From assembly GCA_036768485.1 (NCBI GenBank), contig JAVLUZ010000652.1, positions 124,001 through 188,000 on the forward strand: a stretch of DNA of 64,000 nucleotides, given 5' to 3'. This stretch comes from Mermis nigrescens. Its lineage: Eukaryota; Nematoda; Enoplea; Mermithida; Mermithidae. Shown piece after piece: positions 36,698 to 63,320 of the stretch. A program made the position numbers and the translations under genes. The notes beneath the pieces were generated by a model that was not told the origin of the DNA, ran no database searches, and saw nothing but the letters and a program-made list of their open reading frames with translations. Every line of letters starts with the position of its first letter. Within the stretch, counting starts at the first letter, position 1.

Positions 36698-36746
36698 AAC
36701 CCTTCCGTAAAAGGGTCATGTTTTACTTTAAGTGAGTTCTTTAGCC

Positions 36747-37159: not shown

Positions 37160-37177
37160 TTATTTTTATTACCCAAA

Positions 37178-38054: not shown

Positions 38055-38078
38055 CGTTTAATAATAATTTACAAACGG

Positions 38079-38585: not shown

Positions 38586-38751
38586 TATTCTGGAGTTTTC
38601 AACCATTTTCCTTGCTGATATTGAACATTATTTACTTATATATCGTGCGCAATGATTTAACAGAAAAATTCGTCGGTATTCATTTTTTTACATTATAACA
38701 AAAACGCTGAAAGTCTAAAAAAATCCGACATGCGCAAGCGCGGCTGCTTTT

Positions 38752-39756: not shown

Positions 39757-39983
39757 CTCGCAAAATTACAACTATATAACAAATTAAGAGCATTATAAAG
39801 TCGCAAAAAACGACGTATTTTGATTGAACTTTGCACGAATATCTACTACAGAGTTATTAAAATAGGCATCCTTGTTAACGTGTAAATTGCAGATGATATT
39901 TCAAAAATAAATATGAATAAAGGAATACCCATTCGGCTCTAATTTTTTATTTTTTTAATTTTTTAGTTTTCTAAACGAAAAGT

Positions 39984-40353
39984 TCACATTTTATTCAAAT
40001 TTATCATTAAATTTTCGTAGCTGATGCAATTTTTATCGTTTTGGTTCAGAATTTGAAGTTTTTTAATATATTTTTTGGCCATTCCTTTATCGATCGGAAT
40101 TTCAATTTCGTCGGCTATTTTTTCTCCTTCAATGATGCGAATAAAATTTTCATGTAAGTAGGCGCGCAATCTCGAAGCATCAATGCATCTATGTAAGCGC
40201 TTACACGTTTTGAACGTGCATTTTGTGTAATTTACACCTTTTAAGCCTTCAGCAAGACATGCTTCAACGAAATCAAAAGCGATCAATAATCTTTATAGTA
40301 ATATGATCAGCTAGAAATTGCTCAGCGAGAGAAAATGAAGTCACAAATGGCAT
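39984..40353 (-). pseudogene. Element protein of unknown function, frameshifted
   Basis: ATG at 40353 starts a frame (FVTSFSLAEQFLADHITIK) that shifts near 40290 into a longer frame ending at 39984. The longer part holds FVEACLAEGLKG, three cysteines (KCTFKTCKRLHRC) and a basic region near KKYIKKLQ. No family recognised. It is divergent from the polymerase gene across the TGTAGCTACA cluster at 40423-40538. Confidence 0.5.
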
Positions 40354-40422
40354 AATTGATGAACAATAGTAAAAAACGCGCATTATGTATTCATAGTATA
40401 ACAAGGTACGATTAAAAAGTTG

Positions 40423-40559
40423 TGTAGCTACAGAATGATACCGTTTTGGCGCGTTAATCAGAAACGGCGTTAAACATTGTAGCTACAAAATGTGACCGAT
40501 AAGAAGCGAGATTAGAGGCGCGAAAATATGTAGCTACAAATGAAGTAATAAATATACGT
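40423..40559. promoter_or_regulatory. Divergent promoter with three TGTAGCTACA palindromes
   Basis: Palindromes at 40423-40432, 40478-40487 and 40529-40538 lie between the minus-strand gene at 40353 and the polymerase start at 40596. A TATA-like AATAAATATA (40548-40557) follows the last box, about 40 nt before the polymerase ATG. Confidence 0.65.
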
Positions 40560-42037
40560 GATTTAACGTGTGAAATCAATATTTCTCGACATGCAATGGC
40601 GACTTTGACCGATTTATCGAAATTGAACGATGTGATTAAATCGAAGATATGGGTACGAAACGAAGCGCTGATCGGTGTTTTATTGAAGAAGGTGGTCGAG
40701 TATGGTGCACAGAATGCGATAACTGGCGAGTTTTGGGCGACGCTTATGGAAGATGGTTCCTCTCAGCAACTTGCACAACCTACGATAAATCGACAAACGC
40801 TCCAAACCCTTCTAGAGAGTGATCTTTGGATCGGACAGTCGAAAATCGCCTCCTCCATCTTCAACGAGTACCTGCAGCTACCCCCAGATGACCAACAGAA
40901 TTTCGCTACCCCCGAATTTTGGGCCGAAATCTTCAAAGGTTTCGATGAGGGTAAACATAAAATGAATCATAAACAGGAATGCACAGCATGTGGTAGGAGT
41001 TGGAGAGGGGGTATGATCCAGACCCCCGAATTAAAACTTTTCTTCAAAAGCACCTGAAATTGATCGAAAATCTAGTTTTGACGTTTTGCTTATTTTTTCA
41101 CTTCACTCTTCCCAAACCTGTCCTGCTGTACATCTAACGATAAGGAAGTTATTTATAAATATATTTCTCTATGAGCAACTTGTAAGCCTAAAAAATGTCA
41201 CTAATTTCAGAGGAAGAAATGCCTATTGCGGATTTCTACGAACTGGGCGAGGTGTCGAATTTACGGGTCTAACGTTTCAAGGCTCAGGCTGTTGGATACA
41301 ATGTGCGTTTCAAAAATTTTGACCCAGCCCAAGAAAACATGTTCAATCTGCTTCCGCGACTTTTCGACTCGATTATAACAAGAACGACTGCAGAATATGC
41401 CGAAAACGATCGAGTGGGGTTGGAAATCAACCATCCTAGCCTAGATACGGCAGTGTTGGTCCCTTTTGCGCCACTAAAAGACATGCTCGCGGAAAAAGTG
41501 CTAAGCATAATCGAGCGAGTGCAGCAATCGAACACAGAATTTGCGTTTAATGAGGCGATGCATATAAAGGTGGTGGTTGTAAAGAAGCCTGCGGGTCGGA
41601 GGAAAGAGCCGATATGAAGGGGCAAACACAAGAATAGTTAATTGGAACGAGTGGTTCGCCAAAGGCACAGGACCACATGGAGGCTGTTTTTTGCAAGTGA
41701 ATAAAAATTGATTTTTTTATCAATTTTTTTCGCTTAAAATTAGGATTTTTGCAGATTTTTAACAACAACGACATGCTATGCCTGCCAAGAGCGATTGTCA
41801 CAGCAAAAGCAAGGATCTACAATCATCCTCAATGGGAAACTATACGTAAAGGCGACAGAGACCGGTAATTTAACATTATTATGCATGATTTTTAAGGGAT
41901 ACTATCTTAATCGTTAAAAAGATATTTGAATGTTTTTGGTCGAAAGCTGTCAAATTTCACTATTTTTATGTTTTACAGTGTTTATCTAAGATGTTCAAAA
42001 TTTTTTACCAGCCCCTAATTCAATGTTATACATAATA

Positions 42038-42145
<108 letters not shown>

Positions 42146-42898
42146 TCTTTTAACAGCATTTTAATCATCTTTTGTAACTTTGCTCATAATTCTCATTCTA
42201 TACTTCATTTCAGAAAAATCCTACAACGAGAAATGGCGAAAGAGCTTATGAGACAGGTGGGCTTGCAGGACCATCGAGGGCCGTGTGGTATTGACGAGGC
42301 CAAAAAGATGAAAGACTTTCTCACGCCCAATTACCAGGTGCAAATTTACTCAAAAGATGCTTTTATCGCCTTGATTCACAAAGCTCCCGAGGCAGAAAAG
42401 AAAATTTCTCTGTACCTTCATGATGGTCATTTTGATGTCATAACAAGGATGCCCGCTTTCATAGGACAATCGTATTTTTGTGAAAAATGCGACAAAGGTT
42501 ACAGCAATATTGATGAACATAGCTGCAACAAGGGTGGTTGCCCAGGATGCAATCGGCCCCAGCCATGCCCAATTGTCAGCTGGACAAAATGCCAGGATTG
42601 TAATCGGTGAGAACGTTTTTCTTTATTTTCAAATTTTTTGGCAATCTTTTTGAATTCTTTCAATTATTTTAGCTGGTTTCCTAGCATCACTTGTTTCCTC
42701 AACCATAAAATGGGCTTAACAAAGAAGGCGATAAAAAGCGAAAAGTGCAGTCATCCTGTGAAGCCATGAAACGGTGCAAGGATTGTGGTCAACTTATCAA
42801 ATCAAAGCAAAAGAAGGGCCACAAGTGCAATCATTTTTACTGCAGAACGTGCAAGGCTGATGTGCCCAAGGAGAACCATGAATGCTTCATTAGAGTAG

Positions 42899-43384
<486 letters not shown>

Positions 43385-46300
43385 GAGTTTTTCAGAAATT
43401 TCTGTCCTTTTTCCAAAAGATAAATAAGAATAAAATATATATAAAAGTAAAAGAATTGATTATTTTTAGGTCAAAAAGGAAGATTCGGAAAAAGAAAAAA
43501 CCCGAAGGCCCGTTTTCATCTTTTTTGATTTTGAAACGAGACAGGATGACGAGTACAAGGAGAACAAGCTCGGAATGACCTTCAAGCACAAACCCAATTG
43601 CTGTGTGGTCTACCGGCGCTGCGAAACCTGCAAGGACAGGAAAATCGGAAATTGTGAAAAATGCGGTCAAAACAGGAACGTTTTTATGGGTGAATCGTGC
43701 CTCGACGACTTTGGAAAATGGATATTTTCCGAAGAAAATCGAGGTGCCACCGCCTTAGCCCATAATGCACGATCCTTCGATGCCAAATTTTTGCATGAAT
43801 ACTTGCATCGTAAAAGGACAGTCAAACCAAACGTTGTCGCAAAAGGTATTCTTTTTAGAGTTTTTTTTTCAGAATTTTAATTGTTAATTTTTCTAGGCAT
43901 AAATATTATACTCGTACTTTATGTATTTTAATGTTTCAACATTTTCAGGGCTCGAAATTATCATGCTGGAAGCCAACAATATTCGGGTCATTGATACGCT
44001 CAATTTCCTACCCTTGCCACTGTCAAGCTTCCCAAAAACGTTTGGAATGACGGAATTGAAAAAAGGCCACTTTCCACATCTTTTTAATCGACTGGAAAAT
44101 TGGAACTATGAGGGACCACTGCCTGCTGCTGAATTTTATGCCCCACGGTACATAAAAGAATAGGCGAAGGCTGAATTTGATAAATAGTGAGATTTTGACT
44201 TGAATTTCCAATTTTTTCATACAAAAACTAATTTATTAAAATTGCTGGAAAGTTCCAAGAATCTGCTGTTCAATTTTCAGCACAAGTTGCTGACATACTG
44301 TGAAAGTGATGTCGATATATTGGCGAAATACGCCCTCAAATTTCGAGATATATTCTTAAAGTTACGATTCTTTTTTATCTCACTATAACTTTGTGCTAAT
44401 TTTTTAGAAATTTCCCAGGAAACGGGTGTCGATCCGTTTTTAAAATCTCTTACAATCGCCTGAGCATGCAACGTTGTTTTTCGCCAAAAGTTCCTTCAGC
44501 CAAATACTATAGGGAATGTGCCCTATGGAGGGTACAGGCGAGAAGAGAATCAGTTTATCACTGCACTAAAATGGTTCAAATGGATCGCCCATACACAAAA
44601 CATACAAATACGACACAAACTGATTGGCGGAGAGATAAAAATCGGCAATTTCAAGGTTGATGGCCTGCATGAAAAGACTGTGTTCGAATTCTATGGGTGA
44701 TAATAAGAAAAATTTTTTTGTTTTTAACACTCAAAATTTTACTGTAAAAACAAGATTTTCGTACAGGTGGCACGGCTGCCCAAAGTGTATGACTAAGCAG
44801 AAAGATGTCATTGCTGACCATAAATCGACAGCTGAAGAAGCCTATCAGGTAAATATTTGCATTTTTTGCCATTTTCGACGAAATTCTACATTTTTAATAA
44901 TTTTTAGCGAAAAACGGATAGGCGTGAAGCACTCAAAGCTCGAGGGTGTCAAGTCATCGAAATGTGGGAGTGTGTGTTGCGAGAAGAACTAAAGAGAAAT
45001 CGAGAGATGAAGGCATTTTTCGATTCTGTCACGATAAACGGGCCAATGAATCCCCGTGATGCGTTCTACAGAGGGCGAACAAATGCAGTAAAACTGTACC
45101 ACAAGTGCAAAGAAAGCGAGAAAATTCACTATGTGGACATCATCCTTGGGTGTGTAAAATGGGTAAGTTTTTTTCTCATTTTTCTCCTGAAAAAGACAAA
45201 TTTTCTTATTATATTCCTTTTTTACTAGGGTTGTTCCCATTGCGCCACCCGGTAATAATCACAGAAAATTTCGGAAACCTCACCAATCGACCATATATTG
45301 GCGTCATCAAGTGTAAGGTTGTACTGCCTCAACAACTCTACCATCCTATCTTGCCTTACCGCTCAAATGGAAAGCTGCTCTTCCCTTTGTGCCGCACCTG
45401 TGCCGAGAACCCAATTGACGCCTGTGATCACACTGACGAGCAACGAGCCCTCAATGGGGCGTGGGTCTCCCTTGAACTTTACAAGGCCATGGAAAAAGGA
45501 TATAGGGTAAAAAATACAAATTCAAATTATTTAATCTATCGTTTGATTTAAAATGACTTATTTTTAAGATTGTTAAGATCGAGGAAGTGTGGCATTACAA
45601 GGATACAACGCAGTATGATCCTGAAACAAAATCGGGAGGCCTATTTGCCGAATACAGCAAAACATTCATACGTTTGAAGCAGCAAGCGGATGTATACTCT
45701 GCAAATGCACAATCGGATTAACAAAAACCCGAATACGTTGCAAACAACGAACGAGTGGAAGTTGTGAAGCTGATTCCCGCCGAAATTGCAAAGAATCCGG
45801 GTCTTCGTGGGTTGTCGAAATTACTGCTGAATTCATTTAAATTTTCTGTTTTATAATCTTCATTATGGACATTTTTGAATGAAACAAGTAAAAAACGTTA
45901 ATTTTTTCAGTTTGGGCAAAGAAACAACATGACCCAGATGGAGTATTTTAATAAGCCAGCCCAATTCTTCATCACCATATTGGATGATACAAAAAACGTG
46001 ACAAGTGTTCTATTTTATGGCGATTCCTTAGCATGCACAACATACAAAACCGATGACGAATTTCTCGAAGCGCTGGCTAATACGAAACCCATCATTGCCT
46101 TATTTGTCACCTGCCAAGCCCGGCTAAAACTGTACAGCTACCTCGAAAAGTTGGAGGAACGAGTTTTATATATGGATACAGGTACCTATTCTTTTAAAAT
46201 TTCAATCAGAAATTGTGTTTTTTTATTTTACTTTCGGAATAATACATAGAATTTCAGTGTTTTCATATAATAATGCTTAAAAATTGGTCTTTTTATTAAA

Positions 46301-46831
46301 CGTCAAAGTACTTTGTTTTTTCAGATTCGATTATCTACCTCACATCCCCAGGAGACACCTATGACGTTCCAACTGGCTGCTATTTAGGAGAGATGACAAA
46401 CGAATTAAAAGGATTCGGTGTGAATGCATACATAGACGAATTTACCGCGGGCGGCCCTAAAAATTATGGCTGTCTAGTGACAGACGGACAGAAAATTGTA
46501 CATGAAATCATAAAAGTGCGAGGCTTCCGAATAAATGCAACATCCATAGATCAAGCTAATTTTGAAAATTTAACAAAAGATGATATTCGCCTTTGTAAAT
46601 GACGCGCCTATTATTAAAACTGTCTTTGAAAATCGTATTTTACGTGATTAAGAACGTGTTGTATATACCGCAAAATGTAAAAAAGATTACCGTGTTGTTT
46701 ATAATAAGCGTGTTTTATTCAACAATTTTGTTACTTTGACATACGGTTTTTGAAAATAAACGTGAAAAAAGATTTGTAACTCCGCCTTTGCCGGTCCCCA
46801 GCCCGGATGTGAAAGGAGGAGGGCTGAAATC

Positions 46832-46842
46832 TATAAATATTA
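46832..46842 (+). promoter_or_regulatory. TATAAATATTA box before the basic protein gene
   Basis: Lies about 32 nt before ATG 46874. The identical 11-mer precedes the major capsid gene at 49830. Confidence 0.55.
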
Positions 46843-46873
46843 ATAATTCATTAATCAATTTAAATCTTCAAAA

Positions 46874-47199
46874 ATGGAGGGAAATATGGAATTGAGAAAA
46901 CGTCCTTTTAACGGAGGAGGAAAAGAGACCTTATGGGCGGACAATACGACCGCCTATTGAGTTATGTGGGAGGAATCTGTATCGCCCCATGTACCCTCTC
47001 ATGATACATTTATGTCATTTTTGTCAAAAAAATTCGTCTGAAAAAAGACGTTTTCGAAACAAATTTAGGAAAATGGTATTTTATCGTTCAAATGTGCCCA
47101 AGATGTTGTGAATATAATCGGGCATCCCAGGATGGCTGGAAACATGGTGATTAAGAAATATATTGCTCAACAGGTTGAAAAAGCGAAAAATGGCTTGTA
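46874..47199 (+). pseudogene. Small basic (core-like) protein, frameshifted
   Basis: ATG at 46874 begins ELRKRPFNGGG; a shift near 46920 leads to EEKRPYGRTIRPPIELC and an Arg/Lys-rich continuation (EKRRFRNKFRKM). A second shift near 47040 may continue to GHPRMAGNMVIKKYIAQQV, ending at 47199. Composition and position beside virion genes fit a DNA-condensing core protein; this is inference, as no family was recognised. Confidence 0.45.
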
Positions 47200-47202
47200 A
47201 AG

Positions 47203-47214
47203 TTATAAATATGA
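47203..47214 (+). promoter_or_regulatory. TTATAAATATGA box
   Basis: Lies about 30 nt before ATG 47243, with the same core as the boxes at 46832 and 49830. Confidence 0.5.
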
Positions 47215-47242
47215 GCGATATCTGACAAAAATTATCTACAAA

Positions 47243-47569
47243 ATGAGTTCTCAAGGTGAATTGACTTATAATCATTTTGTGACCAAGTTGGCTGATATAG
47301 CCTGCACGAGGTACATCACTTCACATGATGTGCAAAGCATTGTCTCCTGCTTTTGGAGTTTGCTCACTGAAGAATACAAATAAAATTGCAAAAGCATCGA
47401 TAATCGGAAAGCATTTTGGAATTTTGCGCTTCATGTGAAACGATGCCTAATAAATCGTGAAATCGAGCCCATTTTAGATTTTTGGCGATATTTCGATCAA
47501 AATGGCAAAAATACATGGGAAAGCATGTATGAAAATTGCCTAAACGAGCGAGTTAGTCGCGCATTATAA
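47243..47569 (+). pseudogene. Element protein of unknown function with one in-frame stop
   Basis: A 108-codon frame from ATG 47243 to TAA at 47567-47569 is interrupted only by TAA at codon 47 (47381). It is rich in aromatic residues and cysteines: YNHFVTKLADIACTRY, SCFWSLLTEEY, FWNFALHVKRC, LDFWRYFDQNGK. No family recognised. It lies between the basic protein and the integrase and has its own TATA-like box. Confidence 0.55.
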
Positions 47570-47874
47570 ACGATTTATTCGAATTGAACAATAAAAAAAC
47601 CAAAAAATTAGCGCCTTAATAAAAGGCAGTACAATAAAGTCAATTTTGCAAAACCTTGTTATGGAAAATAAAGCAAAATACTGTAGCATTTTCTTAAGCA
47701 TACACAAGGTTTCGCAGAACAGACTATAGCTGCAAACGAATCTGTCCTGAGGCAGACGGCTTTAAATACGTGAAGTTTCATCTGCTGGCGCCACCGTGTC
47801 GCTTTTAGATATGAAACCAGGCGCCGATCGGGCAATGTTTATAAGTAACGAAGGCATCGAGTGCATGATAAAAA

Positions 47875-48981
47875 ATGGAGAAAATTCCAGAAAAATTATA
47901 TTATGCGCCTGATACTGGTTATATCGGTATTCGTGGACTCTGGACCCGCGCTAGAAAAATTTCGCCAAAGGTTAAGCTTAAAGATGTAAGCGCTTGGCTT
48001 CAAAAGCAGCCGACATACAGTATGCATAAACAAGCTCGCAAGACATATAGTAGGAATAAAGTTTTAGTCAGCGCAATAGATGAACAGTGGCAAGCCGATA
48101 TTGTAGATTTTGCAAACACTGAGCAAATTGAACGATAATTACAAGTATCTCTTAACACTGCATTGACCTTTTTTCTAAATTTGCATGGTCTATTCCATTT
48201 AAAGTCTAAAAGCACAAAGGATGTTTTGCAATGCATTCAAGAAAATTTTATATGATGGCAGGAATCCGTATAAATTACAAACAGACGAAGGCAAAGAATT
48301 TACAAATGAGCGAATTTCAGAAATTTCTAAAGTCTGAATTTATCGCTTTTTCTCACAACACGAAGTGAAATGAAATCAAGTCGTGGTTGAACGATTTAAC
48401 CGAACGCTGAAAGAGCTTAATGTGGCGATACTTTTCGCAAAACAACACATACAGGTACATCGATACTATAGGCAAATTAGTGGAAAATTATAATTCATCA
48501 TTTCAACGAACAATAGGGATGGCACCGAAAGATGTTTCGGGAGAAAATGAGCAAGAAATTTTAAATAGGGCATTTAGAATCGAAGCAAAAAGTGTAAAAT
48601 TTAAATTCGATATTGGGGATAAAGTGCGAATAAGTAAAGTTAAGCGGACTTTCGAAAAGGGGTATTGGCCTAACTGGACAGAAGAGTATTTTATTGTAGC
48701 AGAGAGGTTCGACAGGAATCCGACCCGTTTACACCTTGAAGGATCAGATGGATGAAAAATTGCAGGGCATTTTCTATGAGCCAGAAATGCAGAAAATTCG
48801 CGTTTCAGCCGATGATTCATTTGTGATTGAAAAAATACTGGAAACTCGTAAAAAGAATGGTAAAACAGATTATTTAGTCAGATGGCGGGGTTATGGTCCA
48901 AAATTTGATTCTTGGGTCTCTGACGTAATTAAATTATACATATTATTATTTAGTGAATTAAAAAACAACAAAGATGGATGA
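47875..48981 (+). pseudogene. int: Polinton integrase with chromodomain, frameshifted
   Basis: The N-terminal part (87 codons intact) has SAWLQKQPTYSMHK and the first catalytic region WQADIVDF. Later pieces in shifting frames include LQTDEGKEF (second Asp), VVVERFNRTLKEL (catalytic Glu), GDKVRISKVKRTFEKGYW (SH3-like C-terminal domain) and a chromodomain, SFVIEKILETRKK..YLVRWRGYG. At least four frameshifts (near 48140, 48255, 48360, 48755) make it dead. It would have joined element ends to host DNA, with the chromodomain steering to chromatin. TTTATAAGTAA lies about 37 nt before its ATG. Its 3' end overlaps the start of the minor capsid gene. Confidence 0.9.
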
Positions 48982-49720
48982 TTTTGCCACAGGACCTTCT
49001 GAATTTTACGTTTATTTCAATTCACTTGACAGCAGTAAGCAGAAAGATGGTTATATTTTTCAGCTAAAAAACCCCTAGAATTTCCGAGTGAATGGGAAGT
49101 TGCAATCGAAGAAATTATTCTCAAGTCCTCCCGTGGGAAGCCCCAAAATTATAAAATATGCCTCTCCAGATGATCCTGATAAAATTTCTGAGCTGTTTAC
49201 AATTAAAAATATCGATTTTCCACAAAATGCTCAGCAACTTGTTGCTTCTTTCAACTCTGCGATACCAGATTCTTTGAAAAAATATTTTAGCGTAGAGTTA
49301 AATGATGAAAATTTTGCTATTCTGAACATTTTGAATACTCAAGTGAAATTCGATTCTGAATATTTAGGATTTAAAAAGAATGAAACTTACCCTAACGTTC
49401 TACCCACTAAACTTCAAAAAATTCGAGCAGATTACAAAGTTTCCGTCCCTCACCCAATTTTTTACATTGTGTGCGACTTCACTTTGCCAGTAATGCTCGG
49501 CTCAAGAAATATTCAAATTTTATGCATGGATTCTTTCCAGTTTAGCATGTACAAAAGTTATAAATATTCTCGTGTATGTTATCATAAAATAATTCGAAGC
49601 TATATTTCGTCAATGTTTTTGACTATAACTGATATTAAGGGAAATCCATACGATATTCTAGACCCCATTATCATAAAATTTCATTTTCGAAGGCATAATG
49701 AAATACGAGCCTTTTTGTAG
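48974..49720 (+). pseudogene. Minor capsid (penton) protein, frameshifted
   Basis: ATG at 48974 begins SEFYVYFNSLDSSK, typical of the first jelly-roll strand of Polinton penton proteins. A shift near 49075 leads to EFPSEWEVAIEEIIL, and a second near 49165 to the main 200-codon part ending IIIKFHFRRHNEIRAFL, which matches the usual C-terminal strand of this family. About 248 residues. It would form the five-fold vertices of the virion. The assignment rests on these segments and on position just before the major capsid gene. Confidence 0.8.
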
Positions 49721-49874
49721 AAATACTAATAATACGCAAGTTGGTGGGGCATTTGGAGACTTCATCAAAAAAAACTCAGAAAAAGAAGAAAAAGAGCAAG
49801 AAAGAGCAGGTTGGTGCAGGCAGAAAGTCTATAAATATTACAAAACAACGCAATTTTGCATTAAGAAACTCTAA
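49698..49874 (+). CDS. Small basic protein between capsid genes
   Basis: An intact 58-codon frame overlapping the end of the minor capsid gene and ending two bases before the major capsid ATG. It has TQVGGAFGDFIKK, then a Lys/Glu-rich part and a basic tyrosine-rich tail. A run of seven A at 49767-49773 permits a shift into an even more lysine-rich frame (KKKKKSKK), so the true product is uncertain. Position suggests a small virion or pVI-like protein; this is a guess. Confidence 0.35.
   Translation: MKYEPFCRNTNNTQVGGAFGDFIKKNSEKEEKEQERAGWCRQKVYKYYKTTQFCIKKL
49830..49840 (+). promoter_or_regulatory. TATAAATATTA box before the major capsid gene
   Basis: Lies 47 nt before ATG 49877 and is identical to the box at 46832. 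Confidence 0.55.
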
Positions 49875-49876
49875 AT

Positions 49877-51167
49877 ATGCCAAGAATTAAGAAACTTACC
49901 GAAAACGTCGAGGAACTGGATATTTTTTCCGGTCCTACCTTGCAATCTGCAATCACTGGCGAGACCGAAACGGAATTTTTTCCGATTAATCCGCTTATGT
50001 CAGATGAACCAATACAATTTGATATTCCAGAATCTTTTACACAGTTAACTGATCCGAGTTTTTTATTAAAAGTAAGAGCTAAAATCGTCGATGGGGTTGG
50101 AGCTGATTTGGCAGATGGTGTGAGAGTCGGGCCCGTTAATTTAGCTTTACATTCGATTTTTAAAGACATTACATTGAAAGCAAATGGGGTCTTAGTTAGC
50201 CAAGCTACAGGTACCTACCCCTACAGGGCCTCACATTGAAACAGCATTTACCTACTCAACAGCTGCAAAAAACGGATCGGCGGGAGCCCCTCAGCTCTAC
50301 TATAAAGACAAAGCAGGGAAATTTAACGGTGTTGACAAAGATATAAACCCAGGTTTTGATGCGAGAATGTCAAAATTTGCAAAGAGCGCCGAAGTAACAA
50401 TGGCCGGAAGACTTCATTTAGACCTTTCATTGCCAAATAAGCTAATTATTCCAGGAGTAAAATTTTCATTGACATTTTTTCCATCTTCCTCTCCTTTTCA
50501 TTTGCTTTCTGGAACTAATAATGCGGCCGAAAAAATGATAATCACGAAAATGGTTTTAAAAGTAAGGCGCATAAATTTAAGCAGTGCAGGCGTTTTGGCT
50601 ATAGAACGTGGACTTAAACAAAAGCCCGCTCAATACGCAGTTAATCACGCTGTAGTCCGAACTACTCAAATGATCATGTTTCAAACACAATTGTCAAACT
50701 TCACATTACACAGTGGCCAGGTTCCCCGTTTAATAATTTTGACTTTAATGCCTAGCAAGTGTTTTTCAGGAAACTATGCGCGCAATCCTTTTCTTTCACG
50801 TTGAAAAATGCCTTTTGGCGCAAATTGATGTGAATGGGAGGCAGTACCCACCAGCCCCCTACAGTCCATTTTTTTCCATGTTAGAACCTAATCTTAATTC
50901 ACTGCGCATGATTAGAAACTTATTCAGTGACTCGGACACTGGCGTAAGCTATGATGATTGGACTGAACAAGGGTACCAAATCCTTCCTTTTGACCTTATG
51001 CCCGAGGATGGGGTGTGCCAGCGCGCAGTAATGGTGTTGTAACTTTTTCCGGAACCTGGCCACAGAATGAAATTAATGAAAATTTCACGGTCCTTTTTTA
51101 TCTTTTATGGGATAACATTATATCTACTGATGAGCGCAAAAATATAATTTTAGACTTTATACCATGA
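49877..51167 (+). pseudogene. mcp: Major capsid protein (double jelly roll), three frameshifts
   Basis: ATG 49877 begins an acidic leader, then FFPINPLMSDEPIQF, VNLALHSIFKDITLKANG and TYPYRA, characteristic of Polinton major capsid proteins. A single extra base near 50233 breaks the frame before IETAFTYS. The next part runs to about 50795 (MIMFQTQLSNFTLHSGQVP), then shifts to the part with LLAQIDVNGRQYP and DLMPEDG. A third shift near 51030 reaches the C terminus, ending TGA at 51165-51167. About 430 residues, the family's usual size is similar. The stop overlaps the protease ATG (ATGA), showing tight packing of virion genes. Confidence 0.92.
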
Positions 51168-51634
51168 ATGCGAATGAATTAAGAAACTTAATTAAATGCG
51201 ATAAGGAATCGAGTGAAATCTTCCAAGGCATATTTTCTTGCGATGAAATAAAGCGACAAAAATTTAAAAAACATAGCTGCGTTATTGTCAACACAGACTC
51301 ATCTACTGGACCCGGCGTTCACTGGGTAGTATTCTACAAAAATGGGAAAAGCGTTACGTTTTTCGATAGCACAGGAAGAAAATTTAACAGTTACGCAAGT
51401 TGCATAAAAAGGGCGTTCAATCACTTTGCAGCAGGAGCAAGCAAATATTCTTCATCGAATAAAGTTCTACAGTCGAGACAATCAAATTATTGTGGTATGT
51501 ATAGCGTGTACGCAATATATCAGCTGAGCAGAAATAAAAGCATAAATATGATTGAGCGAAACTTTACAGATAATACACTTGATAATGATGAAAAAATCTG
51601 TATATGGTTTAAAAAATATTTGCATAAGCCCTGA
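51164..51634 (+). CDS. pro: Adenain-like cysteine protease, intact, 156 residues
   Basis: The uninterrupted frame has the C5/Ulp1-like catalytic set: His53 in GVHWVVF, Asp68 in FFDSTG, Gln103 seven residues before Cys110 in NYCGMYS. Length is normal for Polinton maturation proteases. It would cleave capsid or core precursors during virion assembly. It starts within the major capsid stop codon and is followed after two bases by the ATPase gene. It is the only core gene without an evident lesion. Confidence 0.92.
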   Translation: MNANELRNLIKCDKESSEIFQGIFSCDEIKRQKFKKHSCVIVNTDSSTGPGVHWVVFYKNGKSVTFFDSTGRKFNSYASCIKRAFNHFAAGASKYSSSNKVLQSRQSNYCGMYSVYAIYQLSRNKSINMIERNFTDNTLDNDEKICIWFKKYLHKP

Positions 51635-51636
51635 CG

Positions 51637-52219
51637 ATGGAGGAAATAAATTCGGACATTGAATATTTAAAAAGACCAGCTAATATTATAATTTCAGGAG
51701 CTACAGGTTCCGGAAAAACGTACTTCTTGTTGAAATTATTAAAAGAATGGCCTTTCAAATCAGAAAGAGGCGAAATTTATTATTTTTACAATATATGGCA
51801 ACCGCTTTTCGAAGAATTTATCGCAACGTTCCCAGACATTAAATTTATTCAGGGCTTATGCTTAGAACCGCTGCCCGCTGCTGGAATAAGATGCAGATGA
51901 TAAAATAAGAGTCTGCATATGCGATGATTTAGCCGACTGTGCGTGTAAAAGTGAAGACTTTGCCCGCCTTTTCACAGTCTATGGGCACCATAAAAACCTT
52001 CTCAACGTTTTCATATCGCAGAATCTTTTTTTGAAAGGTCCTTATTCGACCACAATAAACAGAAACACGCATTATTATGTTCTCACGAAAACACCTCATC
52101 TTAATGCAGTGGATACATTAAGCAGGCAACTATATGGCGCCAATGGACCTTTGAGAGCCGCATACCTGAAAACAATGTCCGATAAGCCGTACAACTATAT
52201 TTTGGTAGATGTTTTTTAG
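51637..52219 (+). pseudogene. atp: Packaging ATPase (FtsK/HerA-type), one frameshift
   Basis: The first 80 codons carry Walker A, GATGSGKTYF. A shift near 51885 leads to the second part with Walker B RVCICDDLAD, then GHHKNLLNVFISQN and TLSRQLYG, all features of Polinton genome-packaging ATPases. About 193 residues. It would pump DNA into capsids. It closes the plus-strand virion cluster and converges with the F-box gene. Confidence 0.9.
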
Positions 52220-52336
52220 TGATAATTTTAGAGACAAAATGCGTACTAATATATTTTCTTCTGAATGACCCATGATTAGATGACGCGCAAGCACATAACC
52301 CGGAAAATTCCGGTCTAATTTGTTTTTTTGGTTTTA

Positions 52337-53324
52337 TTAGTAAGAAGACACAAAGTAATTATTACGATTGCGCAAAATAATTTTGTTTGAACATTTATAA
52401 TTTACAGCAATCCAATTGAGATCGGAAGCATGACGTTTCGCGTCCAGTATGTACAAATTAACACGATCAAAATACTGAACAATAAAGTCGTTAAATTCTT
52501 CATCATTTTCGTAAATTTGCGATAAATTAAAACATAGAGTGGTCGAAGTATCTGCGATTATCAAAATACAAAAATTGAACAATACTTTCGAAACAATCGC
52601 GTACTGAAACTTTTTGATGGGGATTTTCGGAAATTCGTTCGTCGGCAAAATCGAGAGACAGAAATGTAAGGCGAGTGGTTTGAATCATGGAGGCATAGAG
52701 TATAGCATTGTAGTCCGTAGGCACAATGACAGTGATAAGCACTATTTTTTCTGGGTTGAGGCGGCGAACAAATTCTGGAAAATGAGAGTTGAGGTGAAGG
52801 TGGGTCATGACGAGCATCTTGATGGGTTTGGAGGCAGCCATGGGCCGAAATTCGAGCTTTAGGCGGGCGTCATGTAAAATCAGCGAGCGTTTCTGCGAAT
52901 TCGACTGCAAAAATCGATTTAAAACGCGGCTTCCGCAATAGGCGTTAATATCAATGTTCGATAGTGACAAAACTTCGGGGTTGGATCTTTCCAGGGCATC
53001 GGTGACGCAGCGATGGTGTTTTCCCTTTAGGGCGCGATTTCCTTTGTGACGTACGACCATCAACTCGACCTTGGGGCCTCCTACGACGGGGTATAGAGCT
53101 GGGTCATTGTAGGGGTTGCCGGCGGAAAAAAGACCACTCGTGTAATTATTGTATCGAATACTTTCGATAATCTTAACGTGTAAAGTCAGCTTCTGTTGGA
53201 TCGGGCCAATAAAATTCCGCAAAACATACAGCCACCGCTTGCACACAGATTCGCAAGTAATTCGTTCATTGATTCCCAAATACGAGAAAATAAGCAAGAG
53301 AACGTGATAGGGCAAGTTTTCCAT
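52337..53324 (-). pseudogene. F-box protein, one frameshift
   Basis: The start at ATG 53324 gives an F-box at residues 1-40: ENLPYHVLLLIFSYLG then CESVCKRWLYVLRN. The frame also runs upstream of this ATG, but the F-box and the promoter boxes favour 53324. The remaining ~270 residues alternate leucine-rich strands and helices (KPIKMLVMTHLHLNSHFP, EKIVLITVIVP, TTRLTFLSLDFAD). A frameshift near 52570 leads to a last part ending 52337. F-box proteins recruit substrates to SCF ubiquitin ligases, so a viral one may redirect host degradation; that role is inferred. Two TGTAGCTACA boxes lie 43-68 nt upstream. Confidence 0.8.
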
Positions 53325-53366
53325 TTTTGAGAAAATGATGAAAACACGGCCTTTTCTAGTCTGCTT

Positions 53367-53410
53367 TGTAGCTACAAAACTTGTAGCTACAAGTTTAAGT
53401 ATAAATAAAA
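53367..53410. promoter_or_regulatory. Divergent promoter between F-box and TBP genes
   Basis: TGTAGCTACA at 53367-53376 and 53382-53391, then TATAAATAAAA at 53400-53410, 22-32 nt before the TBP ATG at 53432. Confidence 0.65.
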
Positions 53411-53431
53411 AATTCAAAAGTTCCCGCCATA

Positions 53432-53935
53432 ATGTCTGTGTGCAGCGTTGTCTGCAGTGCTGATCTGAAAGCTCCTCTGGATTAAGGAGAAATTGCGAAA
53501 GTGCATAATTTACGCGTTCATAAGCGGTTCCCAGGGTTGAGCCTCAAGCTGATTGCCCCAAAAGCAACGGTTCTGCTTTTCAAGTCGGGCAAGATGGTCT
53601 CTACTGGGACAAAAAGCTCCGAAGACGGACGCCAGGCCTTGCTTAAAGCCATCGAAACGTTGAAGATACCTAATATTCGTATTTTGCATTTTAAAGTGCA
53701 TAATTTTGTTGGCTCCTGCAAAGCCGATAAACCCGTCGATTTGCCTAAACTGTACAAGAAATGCTATACCTACTGTTTTTACGAGCCAGAAATTTTTCCA
53801 GGGCTCACTCTGAAACTGTTTAAACCCGCCGTTACTGCTGTTATTTTTCATACGGGCAAATCTTTTGTTACCGGTGCAAAGGATAAATATGAACTGTTTC
53901 GTGCATTTGCTATTGTGCGTTGTATTTTAGAATAA
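53432..53935 (+). pseudogene. tbp: TATA-binding protein homologue, one in-frame stop
   Basis: The frame from ATG 53432 to TAA 53933-53935 covers a whole TBP core (167 residues), broken only by TAA at codon 18 (53483). Both direct repeats of the saddle are visible. The first has KRFPGLSLKL, ATVLLFKSGKMVSTG and KSSEDGRQA; the second has VHNFVGSC, YEPEIFPGLTLKL and AVIFHTGKSFVTGAK. The four phenylalanines that TBP inserts into the TATA minor groove all have counterparts (KRF, LLF, EIF, VIF). Many other positions differ from the highly conserved animal TBP, so it is not a recent host retrocopy. Other functions are unlikely. Confidence 0.9.
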
Positions 53936-53947
53936 TAAAATTTTTAG

Positions 53948-54354
53948 ATGGCCGAAATTGCTACGAATTATATGTTTCGATTTCTTCGGCTTTACATTAT
54001 GGGCGCACGATTCGATGATTCGTTGTACCGAGAAATTGCCAAGAACACGTGCAAGAAGTTGAAAAAGAGCTTCGAAATCAACCCTTCGATATGGACGTTG
54101 AGACAGCTACAACGGCCAATTACGCGAAATTCGCCGATGACGTCATGCGATCGGGCATAACAAAGCAACGCTTATACACGCTCTTAGCCTACACGGATAA
54201 TTTAGCCGAAAATATGGAACGCAAAAATATGGATGTTGGGATTTTACTTTATTCGTTCAAGAGCTACTTCAAGCTACACCTGGCCATGCGGTTCATTACA
54301 CAATACGTCCAAGCCGTTTCCTACCTGCGCCCAAAAACCCAACGGCCTTTTTAA
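53948..54354 (+). pseudogene. Bcl-2-like candidate, one frameshift
   Basis: ATG 53948 begins a helical segment (FRFLRLYIMGARFDDSLY) and shifts near 54045 into a frame with EVEKELRNQPFD, KFADDVMRSGITKQRLYTLL and FKLHLAMRFITQYVQAV. The order of helices, the D-x3-xSGITxxRL segment (BH1-like position) and a final HLA..FITQ (BH2-like position) recall small viral Bcl-2 proteins. No motif is decisive. If right, the role would be blocking host cell death. The stop codon lies within the hairpin of the right TIR. Confidence 0.45.
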
Positions 54355-54550
54355 GGGCCAAATTAGCCGTGGGCAACCACCATTTTTTAATCGTGTAGGT
54401 ATGCACACACAATATGTATGTATCGCTATTTCATTCCTCGGTGGGCGGGACTTCGTCAATCGGCGTGTCGGCTGTTAGCGATCAATCGGCGGGTGGGCGG
54501 GGCATATAACACAAAACATACCTGTATATACTTTGTGTTGCGGCCTAGGG
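54305..54550 (-). repeat. Polinton right terminal inverted repeat
   Basis: Inverted match to 36024-36255. It ends GGCCTAGGG at 54550 and overlaps the last codons of the Bcl-2-like gene. Confidence 0.9.
54338..54359. terminator. GGCCTTTTTAAGGGCC hairpin, right TIR
   Basis: Third copy of the palindrome. It contains the TAA stop of the gene ending at 54354. Confidence 0.5.
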
Positions 54551-55120: not shown

Positions 55121-55883
55121 ACTAGCAAAGAAAAATGCTCCGATGGAACAAAAAAGATGAATATACTTGGAATTGTGGATTATTATGGATGTAAAAGGAG
55201 GGGACTAGGAAAAATCTACCTAAAGTCGGAAAATCTGCTAAAAATCACACTTTCTCTAAGCAACGCAAAAAATCGATGTATATTCTGCGGCCAACAGATT
55301 AAAATAAATATTCAACCATAACAATGATTGAAACAGCAGCACGTCAGCTATGCAGTAGTTATGGGAAATGATATTAAGTAAACTAACAGTCTTCCAAGCC
55401 AATTGAATGAAATAGCAAACATTGAAGACAATTGAAGACATGGTTGGTTAAAAACAGTAGGAAACACGTAAGTTGACTTGAAACAGACTTAATGTAGATA
55501 CACTAGCATGCCCGAAACGATTGTGTGCACTAATCAATCGGCTCCTGCTTTGCTTGCTATAATGCTCATAAAACAAAACAACTTTAAATACAATACCTCT
55601 TAGTTTTCTATCAATCAGGTGCCAGCAATTTAAAAAAGTAACCTTGATAGATTTCGTTTATACACTCTTATCTGAAACTTCGAACATTATTTAAAAAAGA
55701 CACTTTTTTAGAGGCCGCAGAATATACATCGATTTTTTGCGTTGCTTAGAGAAAGGGTGATTTTTAGCAGATTTTCCGACTTTAGGTAGATTTTTCCTAG
55801 TCCCCTCCTTTTACATCCATAATAATCCACAATTCCAAGTATATTCATCTTTTTTTTCCATCGGAGCATTTTTCTTTGCTAGT
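55121..55883. repeat. Long near-perfect inverted repeat, 172-bp arms
   Basis: 55121-55292 and 55713-55883 are reverse complements with very few mismatches, separated by about 420 bp. The arms share GCAGAATATACATCGATTTT. The right arm is the start of the repeat at 55690-58995, so the left arm may be a duplicated, inverted end. Confidence 0.85.
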
Positions 55884-58800
55884 ACACTACTTTTAATTAG
55901 CGTGATTTCAGTACATCAGTCAGTAAACACAATCAGTAACATGCCACAATAATGACAACAGTCCAAGAACGCGGAAAACAATATTGTTCTTAACATCAGC
56001 ATTATCCTTTTTAAACAAGACAACCTTATTGACACCATCCATTTTCAAATTAAAACTGCATTAAAATATTTCTTCTTAATGTGCAGCCCACTTATAATCA
56101 AGCACAAAAATTTAACCAACGAATTCACATTGCAAATCCTCACTCAATCAATACACAAGCACAATGTGTTGTGACTTTTGAAATTGAAAACACCCAATTT
56201 TCAATTTTCAAATTGAAAATTGGATCAACTTTCAAATTGAAAATTGGGTCAATTTTCAAATTGAAAATTGGGTGTTTGAATTTGCGATGAAGAAAATAAT
56301 CAAAAAGATAGTCACTTGGTTTATTTAAGCCGAGTAATAAAATAACGACCGTCCACCAATTCCAAACTAAACGCAACTAATCTGATCACTATGAAAAAGT
56401 TTTGAAAAATGAGCTTTCTAAGCGAGAGTTGTAAACCAAGAGAAACTTAAAGTTAAAACCTACCATTAAATTATGAGAGAATTATAAAAGATTTTAAACT
56501 TCAAGAAAATGGAAAAGGCGGGATGTTGGTAAATTAGAAGGCAAAGATTTTCGGCAAAAATTCAAAAACTTCACGCAAATATCAAATGTAAGGAACACTA
56601 ACGCTTTGATTTGGTAGTAAAATAAATTTGTAGTATAGACTACATATTAACAACAAATGAATAGTGCAAACTTTACACAACTACTAGGTGTAGAGAATAC
56701 TAACAGTTTACGGCTTATTAATGTACATGATTACAATAAAGCTGTATATCTTTGTCGACTTCTGTGCACAGTAGTGTGATTGCTGGTTCATTTTAAACCA
56801 CTTTTGCAGGCAATTTACATCAATTAAACGATAGCTCTCCATGTGCAAGATTTTGTGAAACATATTATAAACACGGCTAAGAAAGATTTAACTTTAATGC
56901 AACCCATTTAAGACAAAATTACATCTCTTCAATGATCTAAGGACACTTGAACATAATTTTTAAATCACTTTAGATTACTTTTGAGGGTAAAAAACTCACT
57001 TAATTGATGTCTCACATATGAATCCTTGAAAATTTCTTGACTTCAGTTACAAAGTCTCTGCAAGTCTATCGAATTAGGGTTAACACGTAACGTAAACTTT
57101 ACACAAACACATAGCGTAAAGAATATTTTAGTCGGATTCGTAATTTTGATATTGCTCCGATATTTCTTTCAACATTTATGGAAAAATGAGTCTCCATAAT
57201 GTTTTAAAGACAATAAACATTAGGTTTAAACCACTTTGCAATACTGCTGAGTGTAAGCAAGCGCGCCCAATTGACGTATATATTTCATTCCCTGTAAATT
57301 TTTATATCTCAGGAAAAAATTTCGATTTTTGCAATGCTCTAGAACAAAGGCTAACATGCAGTGTAAAAAATTACTCGGATATTATGATCAACATTCATGA
57401 AAAAATTATGTCTCTACAATGGTCTGAGGACATATAAACAATGAATGTAAACTACTTTACATCACTGTTGGATGTAAACAAACGCGCCTACGTGACGTCT
57501 CACATTTGATCCTTTGAAAACTTCTAGGCTCCAAGAAAAAATTAGGTTTCAGGAATGCTCAAAAACGAAGATAAATATATATGTAGTGTAAACTTCATGT
57601 AAAGACCTAGTGTAAAGAAGATTTTAGTCAGATTCGTAATTTTGATATTGTTCCGATATTACGATTAATATTTATGAAAAAATTAAGTCTACATAATGTT
57701 CTATGGACAAACTAACAATTGGTGTAAACTACTTTACAACACCGTAGAGTGTAAACATATGCGCCAGACTGGCATATCAAATTTGATTCCTGGTCCATTT
57801 CTAGACTTGATAAACGTGTCCCTGACTCGTAACCGGAGAAGCAGGCAGAAAAAACAAGACAGAAACGCATTTAAAACTCCAAATTTTTGACTTTACGCTC
57901 GCTAAATATTAATGTATAGACAATTTGCTTTGACATGCACCCGATATAAAGCACTTTATTTTTATTCTATTAGACTTATCCCGACTTCTGGACGGAGAAA
58001 GTGGCGAACAAAAAACGCAACAAAAACGTATTTTCCACCATTTAGAACACTGTAAACTTTAAAATTCCGTACCGAACTCCCTATTGAGTTTAAAGAAATT
58101 CGGTTTGGTACAATTTGTAGCTTTTAAATCGTAGTACATTCCTGTGTGCCAAAATTCTGTTGCAAAAATTATTTGGCATGATTTATCAATCAAACTTCGG
58201 AAAAAACGTGTTTTTTAGCCCATTTTTTACCTCTGATTTCGAACTTTACACCCCCATAAATAACTCAATATTGCCTTTTTTAAATGCGGTTTGCTGCGAT
58301 GTTTAGCCCCTGTGAGGCACTTTATTAATGCTGTCTTCGATTTGCACTGACTCATAAGCGGAAAAATTTGGCAGAGAAATCTTAGTTAAAATCCATTTTT
58401 TTACACCATCCACTAGAGTGTAAACTTTAAACCCCAGGATCTAACTCACCATAGAGCATAGAAGACTTTGCTTATATGCAGAATGTAGCCCTTGATCCGC
58501 TCTACATTTCTGTCAGAAAACATTTTTAAAACCTCATAACCGGAGTTAGTATCGGACATAGGAAGGTTGAAAACTCGACCAAAAGTGCTTTTTCACCCCC
58601 AGATTTTCGCACTCTTTACACTGCCGTTCGATAAATAATGCGAATTTCAAAAACAAAAAAAGTGTCATCTGTAGAATTCATCCCTCTATTATCCTATTCT
58701 GTTCAATCCTTCGAGTCATCAATACTCAGTTGTCCACATGCCGCAGTAAAAAGGTCCCAAAATTTGTCCTATGTTATAACGTTACACAAAAACTTTACAC

Positions 58801-58995
58801 CTTCTTTACACAGTCAATTTTCAGTTTCAAGAAAAACAAAAAAACACGGGCAGCGAATTTTTTTATTATCTTTCTTTTAAAAAAAACCGCACCTTCCAGA
58901 AGTGTCCCGTTATAGCTGTAGGGGGTGCCCAGGTGTTGGGGGTACCCAAGTATATTATAGGTACGCGCTAACGCGCTACCTATGATAGAAGGACA
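55690..58995. repeat. Interspersed repeat, copy 2 (3.3 kb)
   Basis: The longer copy of the repeat at 60-2057, with the same ends and many more internal units carrying TAAACTTTACAC.. and AGTC(A/G)GATTCGTAAT. Short frames inside are not supported as genes. Confidence 0.7.
56170..56280. repeat. Tandem AT palindromes
   Basis: CAATTTTCAAATTGAAAATTG-type units repeat about four times. Each is nearly self-complementary, so the tract can form hairpins. Confidence 0.8.
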
Positions 58996-60430: not shown

Positions 60431-61010
60431 GTGTGTGCGTCTACGGATACAACAAAACGTTCACAAAGGAATTGGGAATCCAGATCGCAGAAGAAGAACG
60501 AAATTTTTCTAGAGACGATGAGGCTAAATTAGAACAGCAAATAATGGTAAATCGGAACTTATTGGAAAATTGTTCAAAATTGACCATCAACAATCAATTA
60601 TCAACCCAGGTTCAAATTTATTTGAAAATTAAATCACGAAACTTTGGCTTGAGTAAAAATTTCCCATTCAACTTAAAGCTAAACTAAACCTCACTAGAAT
60701 GCTTGTTCTGGTCTTCTACAACATAGACTAAAATATGAACGTTTGAATTGAAAAACTTAGAATTGAAAAACTCCAAAAATTTAGAAGCACACTAGAAGTA
60801 AATTTTTGATCTTTTGTTTCTTAACCGATTTTTCATGCCTTCGGATACAGTTGAATGAGAAAGGTCGAAACACGCTTCTATTATCGGATTATTCATTATT
60901 TTCAGACCATTATAAAAATCGCCAGAATGAACTCCGTTTATTTTGTAAAAAAATGATCCTCAACAACACGAATCGGGTTTAAACGGGATTTCATTGCGAT
61001 TAGTCGCCTC
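60431..61010. other. Intron of the protease duplicate, nothing firm
   Basis: One 84-codon plus-strand frame (60433-60687) begins in the repeat and has no splice or domain support. Confidence 0.35.
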
Positions 61011-63320
61011 TCATAAATAAAATCGCCTACTTAATAAATTAAGTACAAATCTGAAGTCTGATTGAGCAATTTTCTAGCTTGTTCGATTGCAAGCTAAGTT
61101 TTCGTTTATCTAAGGCAAGTTTTCTTAAAAGTTAAACGAATTCTCACTTTGTGGGCATGTCAACCAGAAATATTTGGATTTAAAGGCGGAATAATATTGA
61201 AGATCGTTTGGGGGTCGCATTCCATTGCTAGTCGACAAATAACAGCGATTGTTCAATTCGATATAGTTTCCCGATCTGCAAGGACTCAATTTTTCGCACA
61301 ATAAAATGCATTCATTTTCGGCTACGTTATCGATAACCCACGTCAAATATCAATAAGTAAAAATTGTCGAAAAATTTGATCAAACATATTAAGGACGAGT
61401 CGATATGAGTTTCAAGATCATCACTGATACGCCATAGATCTTCCTAAGAGCAGTAAAAGGGAAATATTGATTCATTAAACCCTCCATTTACCGAGAAATT
61501 TTTACTGTTGAAGGGTTACAATGATGGGACGCCTATTTAGTCTATGTTAAACTACATTTAATTTACTCTAACAATTATTAGCTTCATTTCGAGCGGTTTT
61601 TTATGCTCTGTCTGAATATTTATTTTATTTTCAAAATTAATTTCTCAAAAGTTAAGATGAAAAGACTATTACAATACATTTGACACCTGGTGGACATCCA
61701 TGAAAGAGAAAAAAGTTAAGACGTTCAAGATGAAAACAGAAAATACTAAGATCAGATAAACTTATTGGATAGATCGCCGTTCTAGACATGATAAAAGGAG
61801 ACTTAAAATAAACTACGAATAAGTGAAGTAGTGATATTTTTTATTATTTCTAGCTTTTTGATCCTCTTTTTTTGGTCCTTCGTAGTCCTATAAAGTCATT
61901 CGGCAAAAAAATTATTACGCTAAGCCTCCTCGTCTAAAAATTAAATTTAAAATCCGTTTCCAATAGATTTATCCATTCATTTTCAATGTTTCGATAAAAT
62001 TACGTATCTATCATTTACGAGGCAGGCAGGATCCGAATTAAGTCAACAGATTGATGTTAGTTCACCAAGAAACGTCATTTTTCCTCATTTTTCATATAGG
62101 TTTCGTAAATTGGATAAAAAATTGCTAGAATGGAAAAAATTTCAAAAACATCATTCTTGAGTAATCCAAGTTTTGATTGTGGCTTGTTGAATTCTGGGGG
62201 TTCAGGCGCCAGATCCCACTGCCTATAATTTTCTCTTTCGCCTAACTGGATAGGAAATGCCACAAAAGTGAAATCAATTATTAAAATTAATTCAATGTTG
62301 TCTGGTTGAATAGAAAAGATAAGAAGTTATAAAAGAATATTTAAAAAACATAAGAAGGTTTCAGAAATAATTAATAAAAAAGCAATAGAAAGTTACACAA
62401 CGACGCTGAATTAAATGTAGATAGGAAGTCCCACTTTCTTTAGCCAATTTCTAAAAATGTATTGACGAAAGAATTGTTATAAATCCGCCGTAAACAATAT
62501 ATCTTTTAAATTCGGAATAAATCAGATGCGGTATAAATTATATTAAATTATTATGTAAATACACTAATAAGACAATAACTTCCGGCTCATTTTTTGACAA
62601 AAATAAATTTTTAAACTATTCGAGGATTTGTTAATAATTATGATATTTATTTTTGAATTGTGTCTTCAAATAATTTAAAGTTCAATAATGGCATTAATAA
62701 TTTTCACTCACTTGAGCAAACGCACCATGAAACACGAATAACGCTTGCACCACAAGTGTGAGGCACTGGTACATTGACGCACGAATCTGAATAGGTTTAT
62801 TTACAAAAAAATTAAAATTATTATCGATTAAATATTTTTTAAGCGTGTCTTTGCGATTCGAAAATAATAGATTACCGATTGATCAATTACTGTTCATGAT
62901 CATAATCAGGCACGCACGCTGGTTTAAGGGGCCAAGCTATACCCCAAAAGGGGATAATAAAAAATTTTATTAAATTATTTTTATTTTTTGTATCTATACC
63001 AGAACTTAAGACCAATTCATCTTAAAAAGCTCTCTTACTATCTCCCATCCGCAATATTGCGCATCGAATATCATTCACAGCAAAGAAGCGACAAGCAAGC
63101 TAGTTAAGTTATAATTCAAATTCTACTTTATCGCAGTTTATATTTAATTTAATTCAGTTCTTGCAATTTAATTAGATTAAATTGGTATAGAACATAACGT
63201 TACAATGTCGCTCAATACCATAAAAGTCGAGATCTTAATTCTTCCGACAAGATTATCAAACTGTCAAGAAAATGATAGACAATGTGCAGCGCAAGCCAAA
63301 AATCTTTTTGAAATCTTTTT

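Follow-up and report, generated by a model that had tools for sequence, protein, structure and literature searches.

A TATA-binding protein gene carried by Polintons of the nematode Mermis nigrescens, with TATA boxes ahead of many Polinton genes

TATA-binding proteins (TBPs) encoded by viruses are already known, and the closest cases are summarised here. ORF24 of KSHV, which belongs to the late pre-initiation complex of beta- and gamma-herpesviruses, is a TBP-like protein whose partner is host RNA polymerase II; the mimic forms part of a larger protein, recognises TATTWAA, requires the four phenylalanines considered below and lacks the TFIIB-contact glutamates (E184 and E188 there; 186 and 188 here) (PMC12529657). 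The giant virus Chrysochromulina parva virus BQ1 (CpV-BQ1) carries a TBP and two TFIIBs, and the polymerase of its host is the supposed target (PMC12085832); the TBP gene of Megavirus chilensis is accompanied by genes for TFIIB, TFIIS and eight subunits of a viral RNA polymerase (PMC11464507). In a survey of mirusviruses, a TBP was present in 59% of their genomes as against 0% of Nucleocytoviricota (PMC10132985).

Here we report a TBP gene within a decayed Polinton of the nematode Mermis nigrescens, together with its relatives in the same genome and one outside it. Mirusviruses (PMC10132985) and the mirus-like elements of Cymbomonas (PMC10675990) likewise encode a TBP of their own, but are described as having HK97-fold capsids instead. 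Megavirus chilensis resembles the present case in bearing a TBP gene in a DNA virus and differs from it by its own polymerase, TFIIB and TFIIS, while CpV-BQ1 brings two TFIIBs, whereas TFIIB is not amplified in the M. nigrescens genome.

Polintons (Mavericks) and adintoviruses have in common with our element the genes for DNA polymerase B (PolB), integrase, protease, ATPase and capsid, and terminal inverted repeats (TIRs). Polintons are considered to stand near the root of many eukaryotic DNA viruses; to our knowledge, they are assumed to rely on their hosts for promoter recognition. No TBP has been reported in any Polinton as far as the open-licence literature searched shows, which for Polintons upholds the preliminary description of this locus, where none was known from Polintons or adintoviruses; two further surveys do not use 'TATA' in their main text (PMC11071308, PMC10328495). 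The M. nigrescens assembly is described as 867 scaffolds that total 524.2 Mb, of which 84% is repeats, and the main text of that paper has no mention of 'Polinton', 'Maverick' or 'TATA' (PMC10989877); for a relative, Romanomermis culicivorax, 6.5 Mb of Polintons are reported (PMC10879605).

The Polinton copy in the window and its TBP gene

The window is the 64,000-nt stretch of M. nigrescens DNA that was analysed, and within it the outermost matching inverted repeats, with Polinton genes inside them, delimit a decayed Polinton/Maverick copy of about 18.5 kb (36024-54550). The outer block of the left TIR (36024-36084, plus strand) is 92% identical to the reverse complement of the outer block of the right TIR (54490-54550, minus strand), and a second pair of blocks (36158-36211 against the reverse complement of 54336-54389) matches at 91%, so that each end holds two short TIR blocks of 54-61 nt. 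A TATA-like GTATATAC is present inside the TIRs. No 6-bp target-site duplication is visible in the flanks (CTGGCC and CTACAC) of this decayed copy, whose ends may be a few bases off.

The genes expected of a Polinton lie between the TIRs. On the plus strand these are pieces of PolB, assigned to the protein-primed type, with short inserts (42365-44697), found by tblastn with the PolB piece of another locus of this genome, L054, which itself matches PF03175 at 3e-24; a retrovirus-like integrase in pieces with a C-terminal chromodomain (47875-48981; Chromo 1.6e-8), 55-65% identical to the L051 integrase, which matches rve at 1e-14; a penton-like minor capsid gene (49088-49720), named by its position, with homologues in other elements and no Pfam match; a major capsid protein gene split into 49877-50239, 50367-50804 and 50776-51042 (49877-51042 overall), recognised by blastp to the L051 and L057 capsid genes; an adenain-like cysteine protease (Peptidase_C5; 51164-51634; PF00770 1.1e-5); and an A32-like packaging ATPase (51637-52216; PF04665 4.4e-5) in two frames, 51637-51900 and 51890-52216. 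The capsid protein of L057, a homologue of the one in the window, matches the double jelly roll PF21738 at 4.4e-4, which is below the Pfam cut-off. An F-box protein gene, its start codon checked, lies on the minus strand (52527-53324; PF12937 1.3e-8), divergent from the TBP gene; the location given in the preliminary description, within TIRs and beside an F-box gene, thus proved correct. Decay is evident from the in-frame stop in the TBP gene and the splitting of the ATPase and capsid genes over frames.

The TBP gene (53432-53935, plus strand) has 168 codons including the final stop. The frame is not open throughout, since a TAA at 53483-53485 interrupts it within the first repeat. The open part (53501-53935, 144 aa) matches PF00352 in two stretches, in line with the proposal that both repeats of the TBP saddle are covered, at E=5e-33 and 113.2 bits against a cut-off of 22.9, and chain sequences from 35 solved TBP/TFIID entries match it at E≤1, the best at 2.6e-30; these scores rule out a chance match. 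The VHNFVGSC and YEPEIFPGL stretches are present in the translation, and all four positions of the DNA-intercalating phenylalanines are F, as the same description had stated. At the level of sequence the frame is confirmed as encoding a genuine TBP. An AlphaFold model of the window ORF alone was poor (pLDDT 39); with the TBP of the metagenomic contig L065 as a second row the pLDDT rose to 60 (about 58-79 in the repeat-2 blocks), and all 44 of its 44 PDB matches at E≤0.001 were TBPs, with a TM of about 0.5. The window protein is thus predicted to have the TBP fold, in a model of low confidence.

Several minor features of the window deserve mention. The inserts between the PolB pieces are about 60-100 nt long at places where the L054 relative is uninterrupted; one of them (43851-43947) has GT..AG-like borders and ends in TTTTCAG, and the inserts are possibly spliceosomal introns in the window's subfamily. 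Long ATT/AAT repeat tracts occupy 42022-42144 and 43059-43326 of the PolB region. Immediately outside the left TIR, in 35774-35990, AGTATAAAT occurs four times (at 35774, 35844, 35900 and 35974). Diverged direct repeats (71-88%) flank the Polinton (32150-34688 with 60981-63288; 136-2061 with 55837-58987), as if it had been placed between two copies of a duplicated region.

Polinton TBP genes across the genome and beyond it

Searching the 523.96-Mb assembly (860 contigs) with the window ORF (best 150 of 1883 candidates) and the Pfam profile (best 150 of 2554) gave at least 239 distinct TBP places, of which two are exons of the host TBP gene on contig C73, leaving at least 237 TBP-like places that are matches and not necessarily whole genes. 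No stop interrupts the matched stretch in 127 of the 150 window-ORF matches, a count that covers this stretch only and includes the window copy, though its TAA lies just upstream. Undisrupted relatives of the window copy (L004-L006) encode 167 aa, and 13 TBPs from different loci share 27-93% identity with one another.

These genes reside in Polintons. Twelve TBP-centred pieces of 8 kb each (L051-L062) were fetched, and in all twelve blastp against the window element or among the pieces identifies further Polinton genes: integrase, capsid, protease, ATPase, PolB, F-box and small conserved genes. Because L060, L061 and L062 are near-copies of sampled subfamilies and L056 is close to L055, the pieces represent about eight subfamilies besides that of the window. 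Genome-wide, at least 101 of the 237 places have one of the listed proteases, PolBs or integrases (at least 150, 80 and 116 of these, respectively) no farther than 20 kb away. About 6 would be expected under uniformity, and 200 trials of random placement on the same contigs averaged 21 and reached 30 at most, the extent of each contig being taken as the largest coordinate seen plus 20 kb. The host TBP exons on C73 have no listed marker within 20 kb. In 24 of the 50 TBP-protease pairs the two genes share a strand, with TBP 1.95-2.35 kb downstream. For the twelve pieces, a solitary passenger gene is rejected by the Polinton genes around TBP. The preliminary description had said beforehand that it would fall if no other Polinton copy in the genome carried the gene; other copies do carry it, as the twelve pieces and the genome-wide proximity to Polinton markers attest.

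The nematode might have domesticated a family of TBP paralogues that Polintons dispersed merely as passengers; this would account for the many copies with long open frames, and for the 136 of 237 places that have no listed marker within 20 kb among the matches listed. We consider it very improbable given the recurrent position of the gene among Polinton genes, the twelve of twelve TBP-centred pieces that are Polintons, and the distant metagenomic Polinton (L065) that also carries a TBP.

The arrangement around the gene varies. L052 holds two different TBP genes (2205-2519 and 3892-4434) with starts 1.7 kb apart, one of them broken and related to the L054 type, and in L008 (2256-2615) and L011 (2225-2638) a remnant of a second, different TBP follows downstream of the window-type gene. 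TBP has an F-box gene for a neighbour, no more than about 1.5 kb away, in four subfamilies (those of the window, L051, L052 and L053), and the two may share a joint role acting on host proteins. The 9.8-9.9 kb examined of each of L063 and L064 revealed no TBP. Both are copies of a Polinton family with dozens of protease copies (around C216:119204 and C529:369008), which may be a TBP-free lineage.

Spread beyond M. nigrescens rests on a single contig. The L057 capsid protein has 801 protein-database relatives at E≤0.001, the best being 83% identical (among the best 120 of the 801). Scanning GTDB contigs with a capsid alignment gave a single locus, L065; this contig of 11.6 kb is filed in the MAG 'Planctomycetota bacterium isolate Dive96_bin10.66'. 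Scans of viral contigs with TBP, integrase and capsid queries gave no relative, and protein searches with TBP brought up no candidate with three shared words. L065 carries, besides a TBP (Pfam E=3e-45), a capsid gene (37% identical to that of L057) and penton-like, protease, ATPase and integrase genes with relatives in the nematode Polintons. Its TBP stands head-to-head with the ATPase gene, as it does in L055. Given this gene set, L065 appears to be a Polinton, presumably eukaryotic, that was mis-filed in a bacterial (Planctomycetota) MAG. A distantly related Polinton contig from elsewhere carries the gene too, something the preliminary description had suggested looking for in related genomes.

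The Polinton TBPs are far from that of their host. Vertebrate TBP shares 86% identity with the host protein and archaeal TBP 42%; the 13 Polinton TBPs share 28-43% with it, roughly the archaeal distance, and L004, an undisrupted relative of the window copy, shares 38%. In a tree of 16 Polinton rows and four cellular TBPs, host and vertebrate TBP grouped at 95/92 and a branch with 94/94 support separated 14 of the 16 Polinton rows from the others; the TBPs of L057 and L065 fell outside this main group on long branches. An AU test rejected the grouping of host TBP with the window's family (p=2e-6) and did not reject a grouping of all 16 Polinton rows (p=0.33). That a recent retrocopy of host TBP or TRF landed in a Polinton is suggested by the lack of introns in the gene, but we find it barely credible in view of these identities and of the many Polinton-linked copies, one of them outside this genome (L065); for TBP itself the identities and the AU test rule it out, and tight grouping with host TBP, the other outcome that the preliminary description had named as fatal to its claim, was not what the tree gave.

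Polinton TBP evolves under purifying selection. Between related subfamilies dN/dS (Nei-Gojobori, NG86) was 0.11, 0.13, 0.17 and 0.20, at dS values of 2.2, 0.76, 0.41 and 2.2, respectively, with one further pair saturated. Values within families were higher (0.27-0.44 in the window's family; in a family with 185-aa proteins, 0.37 between two members and 0.28 over 17 copies), which fits decay after insertion.

TATA boxes, contact residues and a proposed promoter-recognition step

A recurrent box, TATAAATA, stands ahead of Polinton genes. In the window it lies 32 nt before the TBP start codon (53400-53407, plus strand), 47 nt before that of the capsid gene (49830-49837, plus; AGTCTATAAATATT) and 39 nt before that of a small conserved gene (47204-47211, plus), and a divergent pair (38085-38133; first bases at 38092 on the minus and 38126 on the plus strand) precedes the conserved genes at 37680-38054 (minus) and 38166-38585 (plus) by 38 and 40 nt. 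A promoter set of 56 genes was compiled, from which one without an ATG was dropped; the start was taken as the first ATG in most genes, and the elements are related, so that the genes are not independent samples. Within 120 nt upstream on the sense strand, TATAAATA occurs at 26 of the 55 genes, compared with a mean of 1.0 and a maximum of 6 in 100 shuffles, and it occurs antisense at seven, partly from divergent promoters; the remaining 29 genes have no such sense-strand box. The form GTCTATAAA precedes 11 of the 55 (0.1 in shuffles). The boxes lie mostly 30-60 nt before the ATG, and for the 32 genes with a TATAAA the median distance from the nearest one to the ATG is 40 nt. Held-out genes (16, of which 15 were usable, three of them from the window) gave six of 15 sense and two of 15 antisense.

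The box is not uniform across lineages. TBP genes of L051, L053, L054, L057 and L058 have no TATAAA in the 120 nt upstream. Two 8-kb pieces of the L057/L061 lineage contain no TATAAATA and instead hold TATAWAAG four and five times (expected 1.2-1.3), while in L065 TATAAAAAG or TATATAAATG lies 34-37 nt before three of 11 gene starts, with TATAAAA farther off at two more. The TBPs of L057 and L065 are also the two outside the main group of the tree, and co-variation of TBP and box is thus suggested, though only suggested, by these two cases. In L063 and L064 there are three boxes at 16 genes. At -30 to -60, TATAAATA precedes two of these 16 genes as against 23 of 50 in the pieces with TBP (Fisher p=0.019), a comparison that excludes five L057 genes, with which the count would be 23 of 55, the p-value applying to the 50.

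A role for the protein in transcription or its use merely to bend DNA can be weighed on the placement of these boxes. TBP bends DNA, and Polintons might employ it for that purpose in replication, integration or packaging, not in transcription, a use with which the TATA-like sequence within the TIRs would agree. The boxes, however, lie mostly 30-60 nt before start codons and are biased to the sense strand (26 versus 7 of 55), and the proteins keep the TFIIB-contact glutamates, which bending alone does not need. We regard this explanation as improbable.

These residues were compared in 16 Polinton TBP rows with fungal TBP as the ruler, in yeast numbering. All four DNA-intercalating phenylalanines are kept in 14 of the 16, the exceptions being F207Y in L032 and L043, which belong to one family. 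Glutamates 186 and 188 of the C-terminal stirrup, which contact TFIIB, are both kept in 14 of 16, including the window copy; K replaces the glutamate at 186 in L043 and that at 188 in L059. N69 is kept in all 15 rows that cover the position and N159 in 12 of 16. On the convex helix, K or R is found at position 137 in six, at 138 in 11, at 141 in three and at 145 in one of the 16, and the net charge of the helix runs from -5 to +3, compared with +3 to +5 in the four cellular TBPs. The basic convex residues are what we take to be the contacts of TFIIA, NC2 and Mot1, and this patch appears to be thinned and largely, but not outright, lost.

Cellular TBP (PF00352; 1cdw, 1mp9, 7z7n) thus has in common with the Polinton protein the two repeats, the intercalating phenylalanines, the TFIIB glutamates and the saddle core. 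The latter differs in its 28-43% identity to host TBP, its single open frame, its residence in a mobile element, the absence of a long N-terminal extension and the largely lost convex patch. In contrast to ORF24, as described in PMC12529657, the Polinton protein is a true TBP that mostly retains the glutamates and is accompanied by TATA and not TATT boxes; both features set it apart from a herpesvirus-type mimic.

Our preferred reading, to which we give a probability of roughly 0.65, is that a resident Polinton TBP reads the TATA boxes of the element and hands over to host TFIIB and RNA polymerase II. The Polinton would produce its own TBP, which is predicted to bind the TATAAATA boxes ahead of Polinton genes and to recruit host TFIIB and RNA polymerase II; a host origin of TFIIB is proposed because no amplified TFIIB was found, a Pfam TFIIB search of the genome in which 10 of 10 candidates were scored having returned three partial matches. 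With most of its basic convex patch gone, the element TBP may escape host regulators such as TFIIA, NC2 or Mot1. The outcome would be a private promoter-recognition step in the element's own expression phase. Counting against this reading are the agreement of TATAAATA with a general TATA consensus, the 29 of 55 genes with no such box, the three boxes in L063 and L064, and the basic residues that persist on the convex helix. The earlier suggestion that the element directed its own promoter recognition gains support from the positioned boxes and from the DNA- and TFIIB-contact residues.

The protein could alternatively be a decoy or modulator of the host machinery, acting through shut-off, TFIIB sequestration or interference with silencing, while host TBP reads the element boxes. 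TATAAATA fits what we take to be the general TATA consensus, so the host TBP might indeed read it; the TFIIB-contact residues are retained in 14 of 16 proteins, and the F-box gene near TBP (window, L051, L052, L053) could act on host proteins. Against this, the DNA-contact phenylalanines are kept just as often (14 of 16), the TBP gene is under selection, and the form of the box varies by lineage (TATAAATA mostly, TATAWAAG in L057/L061, TATAAAAAG-like in L065), L057 and L065 being apart in the TBP tree as well. Such a role seems unlikely to us.

If a resident TBP does read the element's boxes, a TBP kept by selection, with no TFIIB to go with it, would be a minimal route to transcription of the element's own, and the elements would offer diverged TBPs that nature has paired with their promoters, making testable how TBP specificity evolves, which TBP surfaces serve host control and where viral TBPs come from. 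More tentatively, and at odds that we would place somewhat short of even, a whole lineage of Polintons, here and beyond, may possess an ancient TBP of its own, largely freed from the host regulators of TBP, with co-changing TATA boxes (TATAAATA, TATAWAAG, TATAAAAAG) and with reliance on host TFIIB and RNA polymerase II. Were this true, the element TBP could be a source of the TBPs in large DNA viruses.

Between the F-box and TBP genes of the window lie two adjacent palindromes, TTTGTAGCTACAAA and CTTGTAGCTACAAG (53365-53393), which are built on TTGTAGCTACAA, occur upstream of TBP in L004 as well, and constitute a possible operator.
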